A stretch of 7,361 bases of DNA from the NCBI GenBank assembly GCA_016931875.1, contig JAFGDX010000066.1, forward strand, positions 1 through 7,361, given 5' to 3'. Positions 772 through 7,228 of this stretch are shown in pieces (the stretch's first letter is position 1; each line of letters begins with the position of its first letter). The notes under the pieces were generated by a model. That model had not been told where the DNA came from. It worked only from the letters and a program-made list of their open reading frames with translations, and made no database searches. The DNA is from Prolixibacteraceae bacterium. Lineage in GTDB: Bacteria; Bacteroidota; Bacteroidia; Bacteroidales; Prolixibacteraceae. Position numbers and translations under genes: made by a program.

Positions 772-3700
772 TTATTTGTAGTTTAAATTGGTTGGAAGAA
801 ATTTTTCAACAAAGTCAACCGTTTGGTTTTTTCGTCGTGCATAATCTTCCACCTGGTCTTTGCCCACTTTTTCCAGGCTGAAATACCGGGATTCGGGATG
901 AACAAAAAATTCACCTGAAACCGATGCATTCGGGTACATTGCAAAATGCTCTGTTAAAGTAATTCCCACTTCCTGAGCTTTAAGCAAATTAAAGAGGTTG
1001 TCCTTTTCCGAGTGTTCGGGACAGGCCGGGTAGCCCAGTGCCGGGCGGATTCCCTGGTATTTTACTTTTAGCAACTCTTCGTGTGTGAGGTTTTCATCCG
1101 GGGCGTAACCCCAGAATTCTTTGCGAACACGTAAATGCAACAGTTCGGCAAAGGCTTCACTGAGCCTGTCGGCCAGGGCTTCGAGCATTATGGCATGGTA
1201 ATCGTCGTTTTCTTCCCTGTATTTATTCTTCCATTTTTCAATACCAATTCCGGCCGTGGTTGCAAAACCGCCGCAGTAATCAATTCTGCCTGAATCCAAA
1301 GGTGCTACAAAATCGGCAAGGCAAAAATTGGCCATTCCTTCTTTTTTCTTTTCCTGCTGGCGAAAATGGTAAAACCGCCCGATTTCGTTTTTCCGGGTCT
1401 CGTCTTCGTATAAAATTACATCGTCAACATCGGCATTTGCGGGCCATATTCCAAAAACAGCGTTGGCTTGCAACATTTTCTTTTCGATAATTTCGTCGAG
1501 AAATTCATTGGCTTCGGCATAAAGTTTTTGCGCGGCTTCACCCTGTTTTTCATCTTCAAGAATGGCGGGATAATGTCCTTTCAGCCCCCAGGTTAAAAAG
1601 AAGAAGGTCCAGTCGATGTAATTTCTCAGTTCTTCCAGCGGGTAGTCAACCAGTTGTTTAACCCCCGTAAAATTGGGTTGGTAAATCGGCGTATTTTCCC
1701 AGTTGATTTTGTATTTGTTTTCCCGGGCCTTTTCCAGTGTCAGATATTCTTTTGCTTTTCGCTGGCTCTGAAAATCGCGGATTTCAGCATATTCTTTTTT
1801 AACTGCGTCGAGGTAACTTTGGTTTTTGGCTACCAAATTGGAAACCACATTTACGGCCAGTGAGGCATCTTTTACATGAATGACCGGGTTCGAATACTCA
1901 GGTTCAATTTTAACAGCGGTATGAATTTTAGATGTGGTGGCGCCACCAATCAACACCGGGATATTCATTTTGCGGCGTTCCATTTCACGGGCAATGTCGG
2001 CCATAATTTCCAGTGATGGAGTAATTAAACCGCTTAACCCAATAACATCCACGTTTTCCCGGATGGCTGTGTCGAGGATTTTTTCGGTAGGAACCATCAC
2101 TCCCAGGTCGATAATATCGTAGTTGTTGCAGCTTAAAACTACGCCAACGATATTTTTCCCGATATCATGAACGTCACCTTTTACGGTTGCCATTAACACT
2201 TTTTTCCGATTATCAACGGTATTGTTTTTTAGTTTATCCGCTTCAATATAAGGCAGTAAAAAGGCCACTGCTTTTTTCATCACCCGGGCCGATTTTATTA
2301 CCTGCGGAAGAAACATTTTGCCGGAGCCAAAAAGCTCACCCACAACGTTCATCCCGTCCATCAGCGGACCTTCGATTACATTAAGAGCCGGTTCAATTTT
2401 TTGTACCGCCTCAGCCATATCCTCGTCTACAAATTCAGGGATTCCTTTTACCAGCGAGTGTTCAATTCTTTTTTCCAAAGGCAGCTGGCGCCACTCGTCC
2501 TTTTTTACTTCTTTTGTTCCTTCCGATTTCAGATTTTCAGCAAATTCGAGAAGTTTTTCAGTGGCATCGGGACGGCGGTTTAAAACCAGATCTTCTACCT
2601 TTTCAAGCAAATCTTTAGGAATTTCATCGTAAATCTGGAGCATTTCCGGGTTTACGATTCCCATATCCAAACCGGCTTTGATGGCATGAAAAAGAAAAAC
2701 CGAATGGATGGCTTCGCGAACCACATTGTTGCCACGGAATGAAAAGGAAACATTGCTGATTCCCCCGCTTGTTTTGGCATACGGAAGATTTTCCTTTATC
2801 CATTTTACGGAATTGATATAATCGACCGCATAATTGTTGTGTTCTTCCATTCCGGTTCCAATGGTTAACACGTTGGTATCAAAAATGATATCCTGCGGAG
2901 GAAAATGCACTTCTTCGGTCAGAATTTTATAGGCGCGGCTACAGATTTCGATACGACGTTCGAGATTGTCGGCTTGTCCTTTTTCGTCGAAGGCCATAAT
3001 AATAACTGCGGCACCATACTTTTTAATGGTTTTGGCTTGTTGTATAAAACTTTCTTCTCCTTCTTTTAAACTAATGGAGTTTACAATCGCTTTTCCCTGC
3101 AAACATTTTAACCCGGCTTCAATTACTTTCCATTTTGAAGAGTCAATCATTACAGGCAGTTTGGCAATGTCGGGTTCAGCCATCAGCAGATTAAGAAAGG
3201 TTACCATCTCTTTTTCGGCATCCAGCATGGCATCGTCAAAATTTACATCAATTACCTGTGCGCCGTTTTCTACCTGCGACCGCGCGATGGAAAGTGCCTC
3301 TTCGTATTTTTTCTCGCTGATTAAACGGGCAAATTTTCTGGAGCCTGCCACATTGCAACGTTCGCCAATGTTTACAAAGTTGGTATTTTCGGTAAAGGTA
3401 ACCGGTTCCAGTCCGCTTAAACGGGTGTAGCTGTCGGCTTGTTTTACCGGGTGGGGTTTTGCATTTTTTGCGATTTTTACAAATTCATGGATATGATCGG
3501 GTGTTGTACCACAGCATCCTCCAATAATATTTACAAAGCTGTTGTCGAGATAATCTTTGATATAACCGGCCATAATTTCAGGGGTTTCATCGTAGCCCCC
3601 AAACTGGTTGGGCAGCCCGGCATTTGGGTGGGCACTGATATAAAACGGCGCTTTATTGGAAAGTTCTTTTACATAAGGCCGCAAGTCTGAGGCGCCCAGA

Positions 3701-4437
3701 GAACAGTTTAACCCCACACTCAGTAAATCGACATGTGATACCGAGTTGAGGAATGCTTCCAGGGTTTGCCCGGAAAGGGTGCGTCCGCTGGCGTCGGTAA
3801 TGGTTCCTGATACCATCAGCGGGAGTTTGATGTTGCGGGCTTCCAGTGCCTCTTCAACAGCAAATATGGCTGCTTTGGCATTTAAGGTGTCAAAAACGGT
3901 TTCAATCAGAAGTAAATCCACACCGCCATCCAGCAATCCTTCCACCTGCTCGCGGTAAGCATCTTTTACTTCATCAAAAGTAACGGCCCGGTAGCCTGGA
4001 TCATTTACATCGGGGGAAAGCGATAGTGTTTTGTTGGTTGGACCAAGCGAACCGGCAACAAAACGCGGTTTCGACGGATTTTTTTCTGTGAATTTTTCGG
4101 CTGCTTTTTTGGCAATTTCGGCCGATACTTTATTTATATCGTACACATATTTTTCAGTATGATAATCGGCTTGTGAAATCCGTGTGGCATTGAAGGTGTT
4201 GGTGAGAATAATATCGGCACCTGCCTCCAGATAACGTGTGTGCAGTTCATCTACTATTTCGGGTTTGGTAAGCGCCAGAATATCATTATTCCCTTTTTGG
4301 TCGAACTCAAAGTTTTTTAAAAGTTCGCCACGGTAATCTTCTTCGGTTAATTTATATTCCTGCAGCAGTGAGCCGGTTGCACCGTCCATTACCAATACGC
4401 GGGTTTCGAGTTCTTTTTTTATGTTTTTGCTTGTCAT
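772..4437 (-). CDS. metH: Cobalamin-dependent methionine synthase (5-methyl-THF--homocysteine methyltransferase)
   Basis: Transfers the methyl group of 5-methyl-THF to homocysteine through cobalamin; cytoplasmic, final step of methionine synthesis. The ATG at 4437-4435 gives 1221 residues, against 1227 in E. coli. A TTG ten codons upstream would also be in frame but falls at the base of a hairpin. All four modules are present. The homocysteine/zinc barrel has GLNCSLG (Cys245) and GGCCGTT (Cys308, Cys309), matching E. coli Cys247/310/311. The folate barrel has NIGERCN and [10 protein letters not shown] around 355-410. The cobalamin module has GDVHDIGK with the cobalt-ligating His757 (E. coli His759). 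The C-terminal reactivation domain has [12 protein letters not shown] from about 1131, which binds SAM. The enzyme therefore needs B12 and a flavodoxin- or ferredoxin-type reductant for reactivation. It lies 78 nt behind the UPF0280 gene in the same direction. Every key residue checked is intact. Confidence 0.98.
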
Positions 4438-4467
4438 GGTTTTCGTTATTTTACCGCCAAGCTGCAA

Positions 4468-4493
4468 AAGCGCTGCGACTTTTTTCGGCGCTT
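4468..4493 (-). other. Hairpin in the UPF0280-metH gap (attenuator or mRNA-processing candidate)
   Basis: AAGCGC (4468-4473) pairs with GCGCTT (4488-4493), and CGA (4476-4478) with TCG (4485-4487). The result is a 9-bp stem with a 2-nt bulge and a 6-nt loop in the 78-nt gap before metH. On the minus-strand RNA it is followed by only a short U-stretch, so full termination is unlikely. Partial attenuation or stabilisation of a processed metH transcript is possible. No -7 promoter box was found in this gap, so metH is probably transcribed with the upstream genes. Confidence 0.4.
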
Positions 4494-4515
4494 CCGTTTT
4501 TTTCGCGGTTCTTAT

Positions 4516-5265
4516 TTACTTTAATAATCGTATTTCAAAATCTCCCCGAATGCCTATTTGGTCTTCACATATGATAAGCATTGAAATTATTTCGGGATAT
4601 TTTTCTGACATATGTATCACTTTTTCCACATCGTTTGGCGATTTTACCTTATTCCCAAAAGCGGTGGCAAATGCATCGGCCAGCAGCACATCTTTGCAGA
4701 TAACAACCACTGCATCGGCTTTTCCGTAACTTAAGGATGGCCCGACTGTGCCTGCCGAGGTGCAAATCCCAAATTCTCCCATTTCTTCAGGAATGGCCAG
4801 CCCAATCCTGTTTGAAAGAGGCGAACTACCAGCAAAAACGGATAATAGCATCTCTTTGTTCAGCAGGGCAAAAATATCACCACCGTTTTCGATAATCATT
4901 TCTTCCACCCGGAAATTCTGCATAAACTCTCTTCCCACCTCGCGGGCAAACAATCCGGCTACGGCTGCCATGGGGCCAGTGCCAATTTTCCCGGCAGCCA
5001 GAGCCATTTCTTTGGCTTCCAGCGGGGCATGCTCCGAAGGTTGAAACGGTTTCAGGCTTTTCTGAAAAAAAGGTTCACTTTTAATATAGGCATCCAGTTT
5101 CTCCCGGAGAGATTTTATTTTTGAAAACGCAATATCTTTCATTTCTGTTTTAAAAGAAGACGGATTGATTCCTATCCAGACATCGGTTTCAAGGTAGTTT
5201 ATTTCAAAACCTGTAAAACGCGAGGTGTTGAACTGAGAGCGGTATGTTCGTTCTTCAAAAATCAT
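4516..5265 (-). CDS. UPF0280 / COG2122 ApbE-like protein associated with homocysteine synthesis
   Basis: This 249-residue protein belongs to the UPF0280 (COG2122) family, distantly related to the ApbE flavin transferases. Visible motifs are SEHAPLEAKEMALAAGKIGT (77-96) followed by GPMAAVAGLFAREVG, the ApbE-like ENGGDIF (126-132), GICTSAGTVGPSLSYGKADA (167-186) and the helix LLADAFATAFGNKV (194-207). No signal peptide or membrane segment is visible, so it is probably cytoplasmic, unlike the lipoprotein ApbE. From what is known of the family, it recurs with DUF39 and NIL-ferredoxin genes, and genetic work in sulfate reducers tied it to homocysteine formation; its biochemical role is not settled. 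Its ATG (5265-5263) shares one base with the stop of the ferredoxin gene, indicating translational coupling. Candidate roles, all inference, are sulfide or persulfide delivery, or maturation of the sulfurtransferase. The length agrees with the family. Confidence 0.88.
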   Translation of the reverse strand: MIFEERTYRSQFNTSRFTGFEINYLETDVWIGINPSSFKTEMKDIAFSKIKSLREKLDAYIKSEPFFQKSLKPFQPSEHAPLEAKEMALAAGKIGTGPMAAVAGLFAREVGREFMQNFRVEEMIIENGGDIFALLNKEMLLSVFAGSSPLSNRIGLAIPEEMGEFGICTSAGTVGPSLSYGKADAVVVICKDVLLADAFATAFGNKVKSPNDVEKVIHMSEKYPEIISMLIICEDQIGIRGDFEIRLLK

Positions 5266-5675
5266 CAGCTAAAATCAATTTGAAACAGTTTCAACGGACA
5301 GGCCGGAATACATAATTCGCAAACCACGCACTTGTTTTTGTCGAATTCAAGTTTCCATGTGGTTTTATTCATGGTAAGTGCCCCGGGAAAACAAACAGCC
5401 GTGCAATTTCCACAATCGATGCATTTTTCCTCCTGGAAATGAATACGTTTATCCAGCGGTTCGCAAATAACATGGTGCCGGATGAGGTAGTGCACCCCCT
5501 TCTCAATGTTTTCCTTAGTGCCCTGAAGTTCGAGCAAAAGACTTCCCCGTTTCCCGGGATAAACTTCGGCTTTCAGAATGTTAATCCGGATATCATATTC
5601 CTTTACCAACTGGTAACTCAGTGGCTTATCGCCGCTTTGCGGAGGAAAATTCAGTACATATCGTTTTTTAATCAT
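5265..5675 (-). CDS. NIL-domain 2x[4Fe-4S] ferredoxin, iron-sulfur subunit of the aspartate semialdehyde sulfurtransferase
   Basis: This 136-residue protein has an N-terminal ACT-like NIL domain (about 3-75) and a C-terminal bacterial ferredoxin domain. The first cluster motif is Cys85, Cys88, Cys91, Cys95; the second is Cys116, Cys119, Cys122, Cys126-Pro. It resembles the NIL/ferredoxin partner (MA1822 type) that works with DUF39 proteins in methanogens and sulfate reducers, where it is thought to supply electrons or assist persulfide chemistry while sulfide is built into homocysteine. The NIL domain is also found in methionine ABC-transporter ATPases, where it senses methionine, so a regulatory function is possible (inference). 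The start ATG lies inside the end of the upstream gene (8-nt overlap) with GGAGG six bases before it, and the stop shares a base with the next gene. Cluster one reads CFPGA instead of the usual Cys-Pro, a one-residue insertion. An extra Cys71 sits at the domain junction. Confidence 0.92.
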   Translation of the reverse strand: MIKKRYVLNFPPQSGDKPLSYQLVKEYDIRINILKAEVYPGKRGSLLLELQGTKENIEKGVHYLIRHHVICEPLDKRIHFQEEKCIDCGNCTAVCFPGALTMNKTTWKLEFDKNKCVVCELCIPACPLKLFQIDFS

Positions 5676-6831
5676 GTTCGGCCTCCATTTCTTTTAAACT
5701 GTTTAACGATGTATTTTGCGGGAACATTTGTACGGGTTTGCTGATTTCAAAATTCCCTTCTTTGAGCCACTTCTTTAGTTCATGTGCAATTTTTCTTGCT
5801 TTTGCAAGACTGGCAACCGGGGCGGTTCGTATTTTTTGGCCGTTTACTTTTATTGTTCCCGAGCGAAGTTCTTCATAAGAAACCTCTCCCAGTTTGGGCA
5901 TTCCCACGGTTCCGTAATCGAGCACCGAGGTTTGAATCTGCCGGTTGTTTACCGAAACCCGTTTGGCCATTTCAACATCCAGAACCGGAATGGGGATGCC
6001 GATTCCGACAAACATGCTCACTCCGTATTTTTCAAAATAAGCAGCCTGAATATATTCGGACGACATTTCTTTCAGGTTTCCCATTACGGCAAGTGTGGCG
6101 GCATTGGTAACCGGGATTCCATGCTCATTTTTGGGCCGGGTAGTATGAAACTGGGTTCCCGGCCAAACTACAAATCCCTGTGTACCACCCAGGAATATTC
6201 GGGTGCCTATGCCAATGGTTTTGAATTCGGGGTCGTTTAACAGCGGACTCAATTCGCCTGAAGTGGAGTAGGTTGCATTTCGTAATCCCGGAAGTAAGGT
6301 GCCCATGTAGGTGTGAATCATTTTTTTGGTTGTGTTGACGGCCACATTGTAATTCTGGTATGCATTCCGTGGGTTAAAAAGAATCAGTTCATTAATTGTG
6401 TGGATGTTGATGGTGGTTTTTATGTGTTTTCTGGGGTAACAATCGGTGCCTTTGCCCCAGGCTTCAAGTGTTATATCTTTCCCTTCCAGCAAATCCTGAA
6501 TTACATGAGCACCGCCATAAGCCGGATTTTCAGGGTCACAGGCTGTTGCTCCAATATAAGAATCAACGGCAGCCAGACCTTCGTAACAGGGCACACCGTT
6601 GAGCCTAATTTTTTCCATACGAATGGGTGGATGTGTGTGCCCAAAGTTGATGATTGCACCGGAGGAGCACATTGCACCAAAAGTTGCTGTAGTGACCACA
6701 TCTACTTTTTCAGCAATTTCTTCGGGGCTGGCTTCCAGTGCCATTTTTGATACCTCTTCGGCTGTTAAAATCACGGCTTCTCCTGCCCTGAGTTTTTTGT
6801 TAATTTCTTCGTAGGTTTTTGTTTTTGACAT
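5668..6831 (-). CDS. L-aspartate semialdehyde sulfurtransferase (DUF39/HcyS family homocysteine synthase)
   Basis: The DUF39 (HcyS) family converts aspartate semialdehyde and sulfide to homocysteine through a protein persulfide, bypassing acyl-homoserine and cystathionine intermediates. The ATG at 6831-6829 gives 387 residues; a GTG seven codons upstream is also in frame. ATG is preferred because it places the two conserved cysteines at 55 (GAMCSSG) and 131 (GKGTDCYPR), close to Cys54 and Cys131 reported as important in the Methanosarcina enzyme MA1821. Other family landmarks are INFGHTHPPIRM (62-73), GVPCYEGLAAVDSYIGAT (79-96) with Cys82, NPAYGGAHVIQDLL (102-115), GIGTRIFLGGTQGFVVWPGT and VGIGIPIPVLDVEMA. 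MA1821 carries extra C-terminal CBS domains; none is present here, so this is the catalytic domain alone. It is the first full gene after the SAM riboswitch and overlaps the ferredoxin gene. Function is assigned by family and context; no heme, PLP or transmembrane features are seen. Confidence 0.93.
   Translation of the reverse strand: MSKTKTYEEINKKLRAGEAVILTAEEVSKMALEASPEEIAEKVDVVTTATFGAMCSSGAIINFGHTHPPIRMEKIRLNGVPCYEGLAAVDSYIGATACDPENPAYGGAHVIQDLLEGKDITLEAWGKGTDCYPRKHIKTTINIHTINELILFNPRNAYQNYNVAVNTTKKMIHTYMGTLLPGLRNATYSTSGELSPLLNDPEFKTIGIGTRIFLGGTQGFVVWPGTQFHTTRPKNEHGIPVTNAATLAVMGNLKEMSSEYIQAAYFEKYGVSMFVGIGIPIPVLDVEMAKRVSVNNRQIQTSVLDYGTVGMPKLGEVSYEELRSGTIKVNGQKIRTAPVASLAKARKIAHELKKWLKEGNFEISKPVQMFPQNTSLNSLKEMEAEHD
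5682..5686 (-). promoter_or_regulatory. Shine-Dalgarno-like GGAGG before the ferredoxin start
   Basis: The minus strand reads GGAGG followed by six bases and ATG (5675-5673). It lies within the 3' end of the sulfurtransferase gene. Strong Shine-Dalgarno sequences are uncommon in Bacteroidota, and the other starts in this window lack one. It supports the overlapping start and suggests re-initiation that keeps the two subunits balanced. Confidence 0.5.
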
Positions 6832-6848
6832 ATGGTTTGATTTTCGAT

Positions 6849-6920
6849 TCACATTAAAATAAATTTGAAACTGATATGGTTTTGAGCAACGGGGGCCAAT
6901 ATTGTTTCTGCACCCATCAT
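6849..6920 (-). CDS. Possible short upstream ORF, 23 codons
   Basis: ATG at 6920-6918, directly followed by a second ATG, opens a frame of 23 sense codons that ends TTA-ATG-TGA. The TGA overlaps the in-frame GTG that could extend the sulfurtransferase gene, and ends 17 nt before its ATG. This could be a coupling ORF, but a 23-codon frame is easily produced by chance. The peptide resembles nothing recognisable. Confidence 0.15.
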   Translation of the reverse strand: MMGAETILAPVAQNHISFKFILM

Positions 6921-6971
6921 TGTATTACTCGTATTTTTGAGCGTGTCAATAATTTACCATTGCAACAAGAT

Positions 6972-6985
6972 GCGGTTAAAACCGC
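6972..6985 (-). other. GC-rich dyad over the leader-ORF stop codon
   Basis: GCGGTT (6972-6977) and AACCGC (6980-6985) are inverted repeats around two bases. In RNA they make a five-base-pair hairpin with a 4-nt loop. It covers the TAA (6976-6978) of the short leader ORF and is not followed by a U-run, so it is not a standard terminator. It could belong to the expression platform or be a protein operator. Confidence 0.3.
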
Positions 6986-7053
6986 CGTTTCATACACATA
7001 TTTGCCCCGTGCATGTAGGTTATAAAAAATAATTTATGCAGTTGTCTTTTCAT
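6976..7053 (-). CDS. Possible leader peptide ORF (25 codons) directly after the SAM aptamer
   Basis: ATG at 7053-7051 lies four bases beyond the 3' strand of riboswitch stem P1. The frame runs for 25 sense codons to TAA at 6978-6976. The peptide begins MKRQLHKLFF and has methionine at positions 1, 14, 19 and 21. The second half, YMHGANMCMKRRF, is notably Met-rich. A ribosome translating this ORF would respond to charged methionyl-tRNA. There is no visible Shine-Dalgarno sequence and no homology is recognised, so it may be a chance ORF. Confidence 0.3.
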   Translation of the reverse strand: MKRQLHKLFFITYMHGANMCMKRRF

Positions 7054-7057
7054 GATA

Positions 7058-7172
7058 GTGCTTCAATTATAATTCCGTTCCCGGCCGGGTATTGGCACCT
7101 TGTCCTCATTTTGGAATGGTTGCCAGAGTTTCTCTGAGCCCGATCTCTCCACTCTTCTGTATAATCAAACAC
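7058..7172 (-). promoter_or_regulatory. SAM-I (S-box) type riboswitch
   Basis: The minus-strand RNA carries the S-box core in order: AGAAGAGUGGAGAGA (7158-7144), UGGCAACC (7125-7118) and AAGGUGCCAAU (7101-7091). These correspond to the consensus kink-turn segment, the GGCAACC block and the GGUGCCAAU junction of SAM-I. Closing stem P1 is well supported: GUGUUUGAUUAUA (7172-7160) pairs with UAUAAUUGAAGCAC (7071-7058) over 13 bp with one bulged G and two G-U pairs. A CG-rich P4-like segment (CCGGCCGGG) lies between. It starts about 20 nt after the predicted transcription start, at the head of a methionine operon, as expected. SAM binding should lower expression of the downstream genes. The lower part of P2 departs from consensus, so a SAM-I/IV-like variant is possible. 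Confidence 0.85.
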
Positions 7173-7198
7173 CCTGTTGAAGAATATTTGATATGCTG

Positions 7199-7228
7199 CA
7201 AAATTAACTGAAAAAAACAGATTTCAAA
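7199..7228 (-). promoter_or_regulatory. Operon promoter, Bacteroidota type (TTTG-N18-TAATTTTG)
   Basis: On the minus strand TTTG (7228-7225) is followed after 18 bases by TAATTTTG (7206-7199), matching the Bacteroidota primary sigma consensus TTTG / TAnnTTTG. Transcription would start around 7192-7195, just before the riboswitch P1 stem at 7172. The agreement in position between promoter and aptamer supports both. Confidence 0.7.

Follow-up and report, generated by a model that had tools for sequence, protein, structure and literature searches.

A probable second, S-box-controlled route to homocysteine in Prolixibacteraceae, with a conserved Met-Cys-Met leader reading frame

Introduction

By how many routes a bacterium makes homocysteine, and which signals control each of them, are questions raised by a 7361-base stretch of DNA (hereafter the window) that is one entire contig, JAFGDX010000066.1, of a Prolixibacteraceae metagenome-assembled genome (MAG; 583 contigs, 3.23 Mb, 70.87% complete). 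The window carries genes for HcyS (a DUF39 protein predicted to be an L-aspartate-semialdehyde sulfurtransferase), a NIL-domain ferredoxin, a UPF0280 protein and the methionine synthase MetH, behind an S-box aptamer of the S-adenosylmethionine (SAM) class I riboswitches. A first-pass annotation, made from the sequence alone, had described this cassette as a SAM-feedback unit for methionine synthesis in a Bacteroidota genome, operating without acyl-homoserine intermediates. The nearest named relatives of the window (Draconibacterium, Maribellus, and Mariniphaga, in the Prolixibacteraceae) agree with the Bacteroidota assignment. Our analysis indicates that the cassette is probably a further route to homocysteine, controlled by SAM via the S-box and probably also by methionine supply via a short leader open reading frame (ORF), and that it would operate beside the MetA/MetY route found in most relatives.

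The S-box is tied to the HcyS cassette

The window aptamer matches the RF00162 covariance model over its full length (model positions 1-108) and above the gathering score of 44.4 (Table 1), which bears out the S-box recognized initially, and it is the sole one found in its MAG (best 150 of 237 candidates scored). In the genome searches, a first look gave up to 499 candidates per genome, of which the best 101-150 were scored, so that single S-boxes were possibly missed. Named genomes provided 79 HcyS loci, 37 of them Prolixibacteraceae-like (78-90% identity; L002-L035, L071, L075, and L076). The order HcyS, NIL-ferredoxin, UPF0280, MetH, which the first annotation had recommended surveying in related genomes, is kept in 34 of these 37 loci, with MetH reaching the contig end in L006, L018, L027, and L028; the exceptions are L024 and L026, which stop too early, and L030, where neither UPF0280 nor MetH is seen despite a continuing contig. 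An S-box is found upstream of HcyS in 31 of the 37. The six loci devoid of it are L016 and L032, where the contig begins within 184 nt, L010, and the Mariniphaga loci L017, L021, and L024. In the latter three, a TAAATTTG box lies about 30 nt upstream of the HcyS ATG, as read by eye, and HcyS looks unswitched. Among the 42 other HcyS loci (from Desulfobacterota, Spirochaetes, Lokiarchaeota, and others), none of the 22 scanned has an S-box. In L035 and L071, as well as in G029, the genome of L071, HcyS was matched as two overlapping pieces, as if by a frameshift or an assembly error.

Whole genomes give the same picture. Of 16 reached via HcyS loci or the window, 14 contain one S-box and two contain none. 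A further 24 entries added 16 HcyS-negative genomes, all without S-box, and seven HcyS-positive ones, four with it, one entry (G060) having the same coordinates as G002, so that the two were counted once. The S-box is therefore present in 18 of 23 HcyS-positive and 0 of 16 HcyS-negative family genomes (Fisher p 1e-6) and, by coordinates, all 18 are placed directly upstream of HcyS. In the family genomes checked, the S-box is tied to the HcyS cassette; since it occurs only with the cassette, it provides good evidence for the methionine role of the DUF39 module, as had been argued from the window by itself.

Proteins encoded by the cassette

Profile searches agree with the four protein identities assigned at first, that of UPF0280 through a match below the cut-off of its model (Table 1). 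HcyS possesses an HcyBio domain well above the PF01837 threshold of 26.2 bits. When the window protein was aligned with 29 others chosen from the 79 loci, all 30 proteins had Cys55 and 27 of the 30 had Cys131. These two residues match, by position, the essential Cys54 and the Cys131 reported for MA1821 of Methanosarcina acetivorans (PMC12068725), a protein that stands outside our alignment. The profile search found no CBS domain in the window HcyS; a Lokiarchaeota relative has one whereas two Desulfobacterota relatives do not, so that its absence is not peculiar to Prolixibacteraceae. The NIL-ferredoxin has the features expected of a NIL partner, with two CxxCxxCxxxC motifs (cysteines 85/88/91/95 and 116/119/122/126). 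NF003323, the best NCBIfam model for the UPF0280 protein, covers residues 4-246 of 249, and no Pfam match was found for this protein. MetH exceeds the NF007024 cut-off of 1497 bits and also that of TIGR02082. These matches support the view that the cassette corresponds to the known DUF39/NIL-ferredoxin/COG2122 set plus MetH. The four genes are on the same strand and, as first described, closely packed: HcyS and NIL-ferredoxin overlap by 8 nt, NIL-ferredoxin and UPF0280 by 1 nt, and UPF0280 and MetH are separated by a 78-nt gap. The HcyS start was set at ATG 6831 (an in-frame GTG at 6852 is an alternative) and that of MetH at ATG 4437.

A coexisting MetA/MetY route

In 14 of the 16 genomes, MetA (PF04204) has as its neighbour a PF01053 protein whose open frame spans 434-462 amino acids, the exceptions being the window's MAG and G002, a 3.3-Mb MAG. 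Typing covered one genome, that of Maribellus maritimus, where the two proteins score above cut-off as homoserine O-acetyltransferase MetA (493 vs 460.5 bits) and O-acetylhomoserine sulfhydrylase (662 vs a cut-off of 495 bits). Across 140 family genomes, MetA is present in 122 (121 above cut-off) and HcyS in 75; 65 have both, 10 HcyS only, 57 MetA only, and 8 neither, so that the two are distributed independently (Fisher p 1.0). If only genomes with a completeness of 90% or more and a contamination of 5% or less are counted, HcyS occurs in 6 of 8 without MetA and in 49 of 95 with it (p 0.28). With no association in either set, we rejected the idea of HcyS as a MetA replacement. Within the genus (37 genomes), 33 have HcyS, 32 have MetA, and none lacks both. 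Since most HcyS-positive genomes also have MetA, HcyS is usually a second route, and the cassette is likely a facultative, separately controlled source of homocysteine rather than a replacement. Methionine synthesis without acyl-homoserine intermediates, as proposed by the first-pass annotation, consequently does not hold for the lineage: a direct-sulfhydrylation pathway elsewhere in the genome, which the annotation itself had named as contrary evidence, exists in most relatives in the form of MetA with a MetY-sized PF01053 protein.

Of the genes that the annotation recommended looking for, metA is thus found beside a metY-sized gene in most relatives. In the window's MAG, neither MetA nor a PF01053 protein of MetY size nor a full-length MetX was detected, an absence that at 71% completeness is indistinguishable from a gap. 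For MetX, no genome exceeded the cut-off and the best stretches remained under 34 bits; this says little because none of 14 control genomes passes the cut-off either. Sixteen kb around metY-metA of M. maritimus gave two matches of less than 100 nt in the MAG (best 40 of 89 candidates scored), as expected for a gap. A single full-length PF01053 enzyme, of 395 amino acids, was detected in the MAG (L107 4155-5342, G000:C500). Two family genomes, G130 (100% complete, 8.0 Mb) and G149 (98%), have HcyS without MetA and are candidates for HcyS as the only route; G130 has an S-box and a leader ORF ending in NMCMR (L159). The acyl-homoserine genes seem to be under different control, as among the candidates scored in the 14 metY-metA genomes no second S-box was found besides that of HcyS, and scanning the surroundings of metY-metA against all of Rfam in five of these genomes yielded only a tRNA and a DUF805 RNA. 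Directly upstream of metY-metA in M. maritimus, L102 4806-8521 has no NCBIfam match at E below 1e-60; from its likeness, we take it to be an aspartokinase.

A leader ORF between aptamer and HcyS

A short ORF, missed by the first-pass annotation, separates the aptamer from HcyS. Among 32 S-box leaders (those of the 31 Prolixibacteraceae-like loci and of the window), 25 have an ORF that carries NMCM close to its end, in three cases as a near variant (NVCM in one, NGCM in two), and that begins 43-50 nt behind the GGTGCCAA core, with TTG as start codon in L035. The in-frame ratio of nonsynonymous to synonymous polymorphism (pN/pS) is 0.36 in 12 leaders and 0.22 in 8 leaders, five leaders of other lengths being omitted, against 0.86-1.93 in the other frames. 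Frame 0 is open over the ORF in 25 of 25 leaders, frame 1 in 0 of 25, and frame 2 in 15 of 25. This pattern of substitutions indicates that the leader ORF is under purifying selection, which in turn suggests that it is translated. It occurs in two types, and the block common to both is chiefly NMCM, the residues upstream of it being also kept within each type. In L003, L005, and L013, it is the start codon of HcyS that lies 47-48 nt behind the core, where other leaders have the ATG of the leader ORF.

A hairpin, GCGGTTTTAACCGC, spans the stop codon of the leader ORF. Its four-pair stem is intact in 13 of 14 aligned leaders, with a compensatory GCGC/GCGC change in L019, and is broken in L012; the perfect form is missing in L004 and L007, both outside the alignment, and the SFMYFSNMCM leader type has no such hairpin. 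Downstream of the ORF, the 22 aligned leaders are unconserved except for this hairpin of one leader type. The pattern [S/A]NMCM gave 17 matches in 16 genomes (3 for the reversed-pattern control), 11 of them at an HcyS leader. For the remaining six, the 1 kb upstream contains no GGTGCCAA core, and by eye these matches appear to be pieces of other genes or chance, so that we discarded NMCM ORFs ahead of other genes of the same genomes. The exact tandem of S-box and NMCM was found in 3 of 395 Bacteroidota genomes, the window's own and two chance-like ones.

S-boxes in other families of the order

Among 295 genomes of the order, 87 have RF00162 matches above cut-off. Counted by hand, 97 such matches lie outside Prolixibacteraceae; 30 of the best, one per genome, were read (L129-L158). 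A tblastn search with our own query set identified their targets as MetY (11, 60-71% identity), MetY-related proteins (6, 32-35%), MetH (7), and aspartokinase (5), with one giving no match. An ATG is found 45-57 nt behind the core in 21 of the 30 (expected 6.1; maximum 15 in 500 shuffles) and 40-75 nt behind it in 24 (expected 14; maximum 22), six having no ATG there; in three loci, the MetH ATG itself occupies that position. In the 21 short ORFs first met at 40-75 nt, Met accounts for 29 of 156 terminal residues. The Met share is 1.7% in shuffled sequence (highest value 5.8% among 200) and 2.6% where places in these loci were picked at random (highest value 9.7% among 300). Met-rich ends, among them ...SMCMR (L137), ...PMCMRR (L156), and ...TMPRMR (L147), recur upstream of unrelated genes, for example those of MetY and aspartokinase. 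Some of these short ORFs, for example those of 3 and 4 codons, are surely not leader peptides. As judged from these sequences, such S-boxes are often, though not always, accompanied by a Met-rich leader ORF. Whether the S-boxes form a two-signal gate across many families of the order stands evenly in the balance: SAM would be read by the aptamer and charged Met-tRNA by the ribosome at the leader ORF directly behind it, the HcyS cassette being the gated route in Prolixibacteraceae and the acyl-homoserine route having no S-box.

Proposed mechanism and alternatives

In the predicted chemistry, HcyS would convert aspartate semialdehyde and sulfide to homocysteine by passing sulfur through Cys55, with electrons supplied by the NIL-ferredoxin and some support of the sulfur step by UPF0280, and MetH would then methylate homocysteine to methionine. 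The cassette is likely shut off when SAM is abundant. A 5' hairpin, P0, overlaps the 5' strand of the aptamer stem P1, with which it shares alignment columns 40-42, and each of its pairs is formed in 29-32 of 32 aligned leaders. The shared columns suggest that P1, when SAM is bound, masks the region in which the next ORF starts, this ORF being the leader ORF in most leaders and HcyS in L003, L005, and L013; without SAM, P0 would compete with P1 and the next ORF could be translated. SAM-I riboswitches whose ribosome-binding site is part of the 3' strand of P1 have been described (PMC2258182). Sensing of methionine supply is suggested, in addition, by the Met-Cys-Met codons close to the end of the leader ORF: scarce charged Met-tRNA (perhaps also Cys-tRNA) may slow ribosomes there and favour expression as a second input. 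The pathway is thus likely braked by two methionine signals.

Several observations weigh against this proposal. The P0 pairs, on which the proposed competition with P1 rests, are nearly invariant, one having changes on both sides, and the whole-leader fold of the window, no better than shuffles (z -0.33), is uninformative. The NMCM ORF was not found in seven of the 32 leaders (L003, L005, L006, L008, L009, L013, and L025), and in L006, L008, and L009 the HcyS ATG is 65-67 nt from the core and a further short ATG precedes it. No conserved intrinsic terminator was seen 3' of the leader ORF in the 22 aligned of the 25 ORF-bearing leaders. Five of the 23 HcyS-positive genomes have no S-box (two Mariniphaga, G074, G149, and G117, where HcyS is cut by the contig end); under stricter filters, G151 (HcyS-positive) and G148 (HcyS-negative) have none either, and G151 and locus L010 count likewise on the contrary side. 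Given such S-box-less genomes and the seven leaders without NMCM, neither SAM control nor leader-ORF control can be essential. The UPF0280 protein scores under the cut-off of its model. Finally, among 23 relatives' loci read, the UPF0280-MetH gap is longer than 500 nt in 7 and contains a TAnnTTTG box in 5, which makes a single transcript including MetH less sure in those relatives.

Alternative explanations concern both the route and its control. That the cassette is the sole homocysteine route in the window's organism, with no acyl-homoserine chemistry, would agree with the failure to find MetA, a MetY-sized PF01053 protein, or a full-length MetX in its MAG and with the 10 of 75 HcyS-positive family genomes without MetA, including G130 and G149; it would also agree with the finding that none of the 37 genus genomes lacks both HcyS and MetA. 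We consider it unlikely, given the fragmentation and incompleteness of this MAG, a metY-metA match pattern that fits a gap, the presence of MetA in 32 of the 37 genus genomes, and the independence of the two genes across the family. Still more improbable, to the point of being hardly credible, is that HcyS performs another sulfur transfer, for example in coenzyme M synthesis like its relative MMP16. A distant TIGR03287 match of 138 bits points in that direction, but it is far under the cut-off of 364 bits, by which we rejected an MMP16/ComF coenzyme M synthase identity, and no ferredoxin domain was found in HcyS; the Cys55 and Cys131 typical of L-aspartate-semialdehyde sulfurtransferase (L-ASST), together with an S-box and MetH in the same unit, argue for homocysteine formation.

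The usual Firmicutes mode of S-box action, intrinsic transcription termination, would find enough room in most leaders (about 150-270 nt from core to HcyS). It nevertheless seems improbable, as the 22 aligned leaders share no hairpin with U-run between the leader ORF and HcyS, the aptamer-HcyS spacing is merely about 12-31 nt in six leaders, and translational control is reported as the commonest mode outside Firmicutes (Barrick and Breaker, PMC2258182). More serious, if still doubtful, is the possibility that the leader ORF is not a methionine sensor, being instead a riboswitch-gated ORF coupled to HcyS, a Rho shield, or a small functional peptide. HcyS can indeed take its place behind the aptamer (L003, L005, and L013), and conservation within each leader type extends to residues ahead of NMCM; yet NMCM is chiefly what the two types share, and the recurrence of Met-rich ends before MetY and aspartokinase genes in other families favours methionine sensing. 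The conserved ORF with codons for the end product is what a leader-peptide attenuator would have, whereas no conserved terminator was seen behind the ORF in the 22 aligned leaders; we therefore describe the leader ORF as working like an attenuator and do not class it as one.

Promoters and other features of the contig

Of the 32 S-box leaders, 31 (all but L022) have an exact TAnnTTTG about 104-122 nt upstream of the aptamer core; we take this pattern, TAATTTTG in the window, to be the Bacteroidota -7 consensus. That one promoter serves the four cassette genes, as stated by the first annotation, is plausible for the window, with the reservation that the long gaps and internal boxes mentioned above introduce for some relatives. 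Four loci have matches to Acido-Lenti-1 RNA on the opposite strand of the UPF0280-MetH gap (L005 2947-2991, L007 5140-5184, L010 11791-11835, and L018 10404-10448). A fifth methionine gene, metF, is located 3' of MetH and cut by the contig end; its partial protein scores 120 bits with TIGR00676 (cut-off 294). Since a strong hairpin follows metH and metF has its own TAATTTTG box 29 nt upstream of its ATG, we hold its inclusion in the cassette transcript unlikely, and metF is probably a separate transcription unit. A box like TAATTTTG is found 32-36 nt upstream of metF in 5 of 9 relatives inspected.

Table 1. Features of the 7361-base window, listed along the minus strand.
Feature	Position	Strand	Evidence
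TAATTTTG, Bacteroidota-type -7 promoter box	7199-7206	-	TAnnTTTG pattern
5' hairpin P0, candidate anti-P1 switch	7164-7192	-	7192-7186 paired with 7170-7164
S-box (SAM-I) riboswitch aptamer	7064-7167	-	RF00162, 70.1 bits, E 2.9e-15
Leader ORF, 25 codons, MKRQLHKLFFITYMHGANMCMKRRF and stop	6976-7053	-	Conserved NMCM near end, coding selection
Hairpin GCGGTTTTAACCGC across leader-ORF stop codon	6972-6985	-	Read by eye from alignment
HcyS (DUF39 / COG1900a / HcyBio), predicted L-aspartate-semialdehyde sulfurtransferase	5668-6831	-	PF01837, 496 bits
NIL domain and two 4Fe-4S ferredoxin	5265-5675	-	PF09383, 55.5 bits, and Fer4 families
UPF0280 / COG2122 (ApbE-like)	4516-5265	-	NF003323, 233 bits (cut-off 271)
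MetH, cobalamin-dependent methionine synthase	772-4437	-	NF007024, 2010 bits; TIGR02082, 1747 bits; five Pfam domains
metF, 5' part, cut by contig end	1-526	-	PF02219, 79 bits (cut-off 24)

Significance and comparison with known systems

The S-box linkage speaks independently for a role of DUF39 proteins in the methionine synthesis of Bacteroidota, and the coexistence with MetA/MetY indicates that one organism can hold two homocysteine routes under different control. It also places SAM feedback on the sulfide-fixing route at the level of the mRNA, whereas in archaeal relatives a CBS domain has been proposed to sense SAM on the enzyme; the bacterial HcyS relatives tested have no CBS domain. If the leader ORF works as proposed, the S-boxes of this order would respond to both SAM and Met-tRNA, two signals from the same pathway.

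Among known systems, the closest is that of Desulfovibrio vulgaris, where DUF39, NIL/ferredoxin, and COG2122 proteins, the same three as in the window, are reported to be required for homocysteine, with direct conversion of aspartate semialdehyde and sulfide (PMC5764234). The locus numbers of the three genes lie far apart in that system (DvMF_1464, 0262, and 0044), and the main text of that paper does not use the word riboswitch. Since the same source names a Dehalococcoides cluster (DET0921:DET0919), clustering alone is not new; what distinguishes the window from both is the presence of MetH in the unit and the S-box. The L-ASST of M. acetivorans, MA1821-MA1822, shares a COG1900a protein with two conserved cysteines and a NIL-ferredoxin partner, and differs by the CBS domain of MA1821, the proposed SAM sensor (PMC12068725), which the window HcyS does not have.

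On the RNA side, the window has a full-length aptamer like other RF00162 S-boxes, differing in its placement before a DUF39 cassette. An S-box ahead of the 'hypothetical protein' RS11395 is reported in Oleidesulfovibrio alaskensis (PMC11124144) and could be an earlier case of the S-box/HcyS link, as a candidate only. The SAM-II riboswitch of Sinorhizobium metA resembles our leaders in that translation starts away from the aptamer, but it belongs to another aptamer class, and its AUG1 and AUG2 are in frame in metA rather than forming a separate Met-rich leader ORF (PMC9373788). Flavobacterium psychrophilum is reported to show clues to leader-peptide attenuators (PMC9723704), and B. thetaiotaomicron to have short ORFs within long 5' untranslated regions (PMC7366714). 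Amino-acid attenuators share with the window a short ORF with end-product codons ahead of a biosynthetic operon; here, the ORF is joined directly to a riboswitch and no conserved terminator was seen. Among the matches listed from open-licence papers, we found neither the joining of S-box and HcyS, nor the Met-Cys-Met leader ORF, nor the coexistence with S-box-less MetA/MetY, nor a description of an S-box reading both SAM and Met-tRNA, which is weak evidence that they are absent from print. The pathway and the aptamer were already known; what the Prolixibacteraceae add is the joining of the two, a leader ORF with Met-Cys-Met near its end, and, in most genomes, a MetA/MetY route alongside in which no S-box was found.

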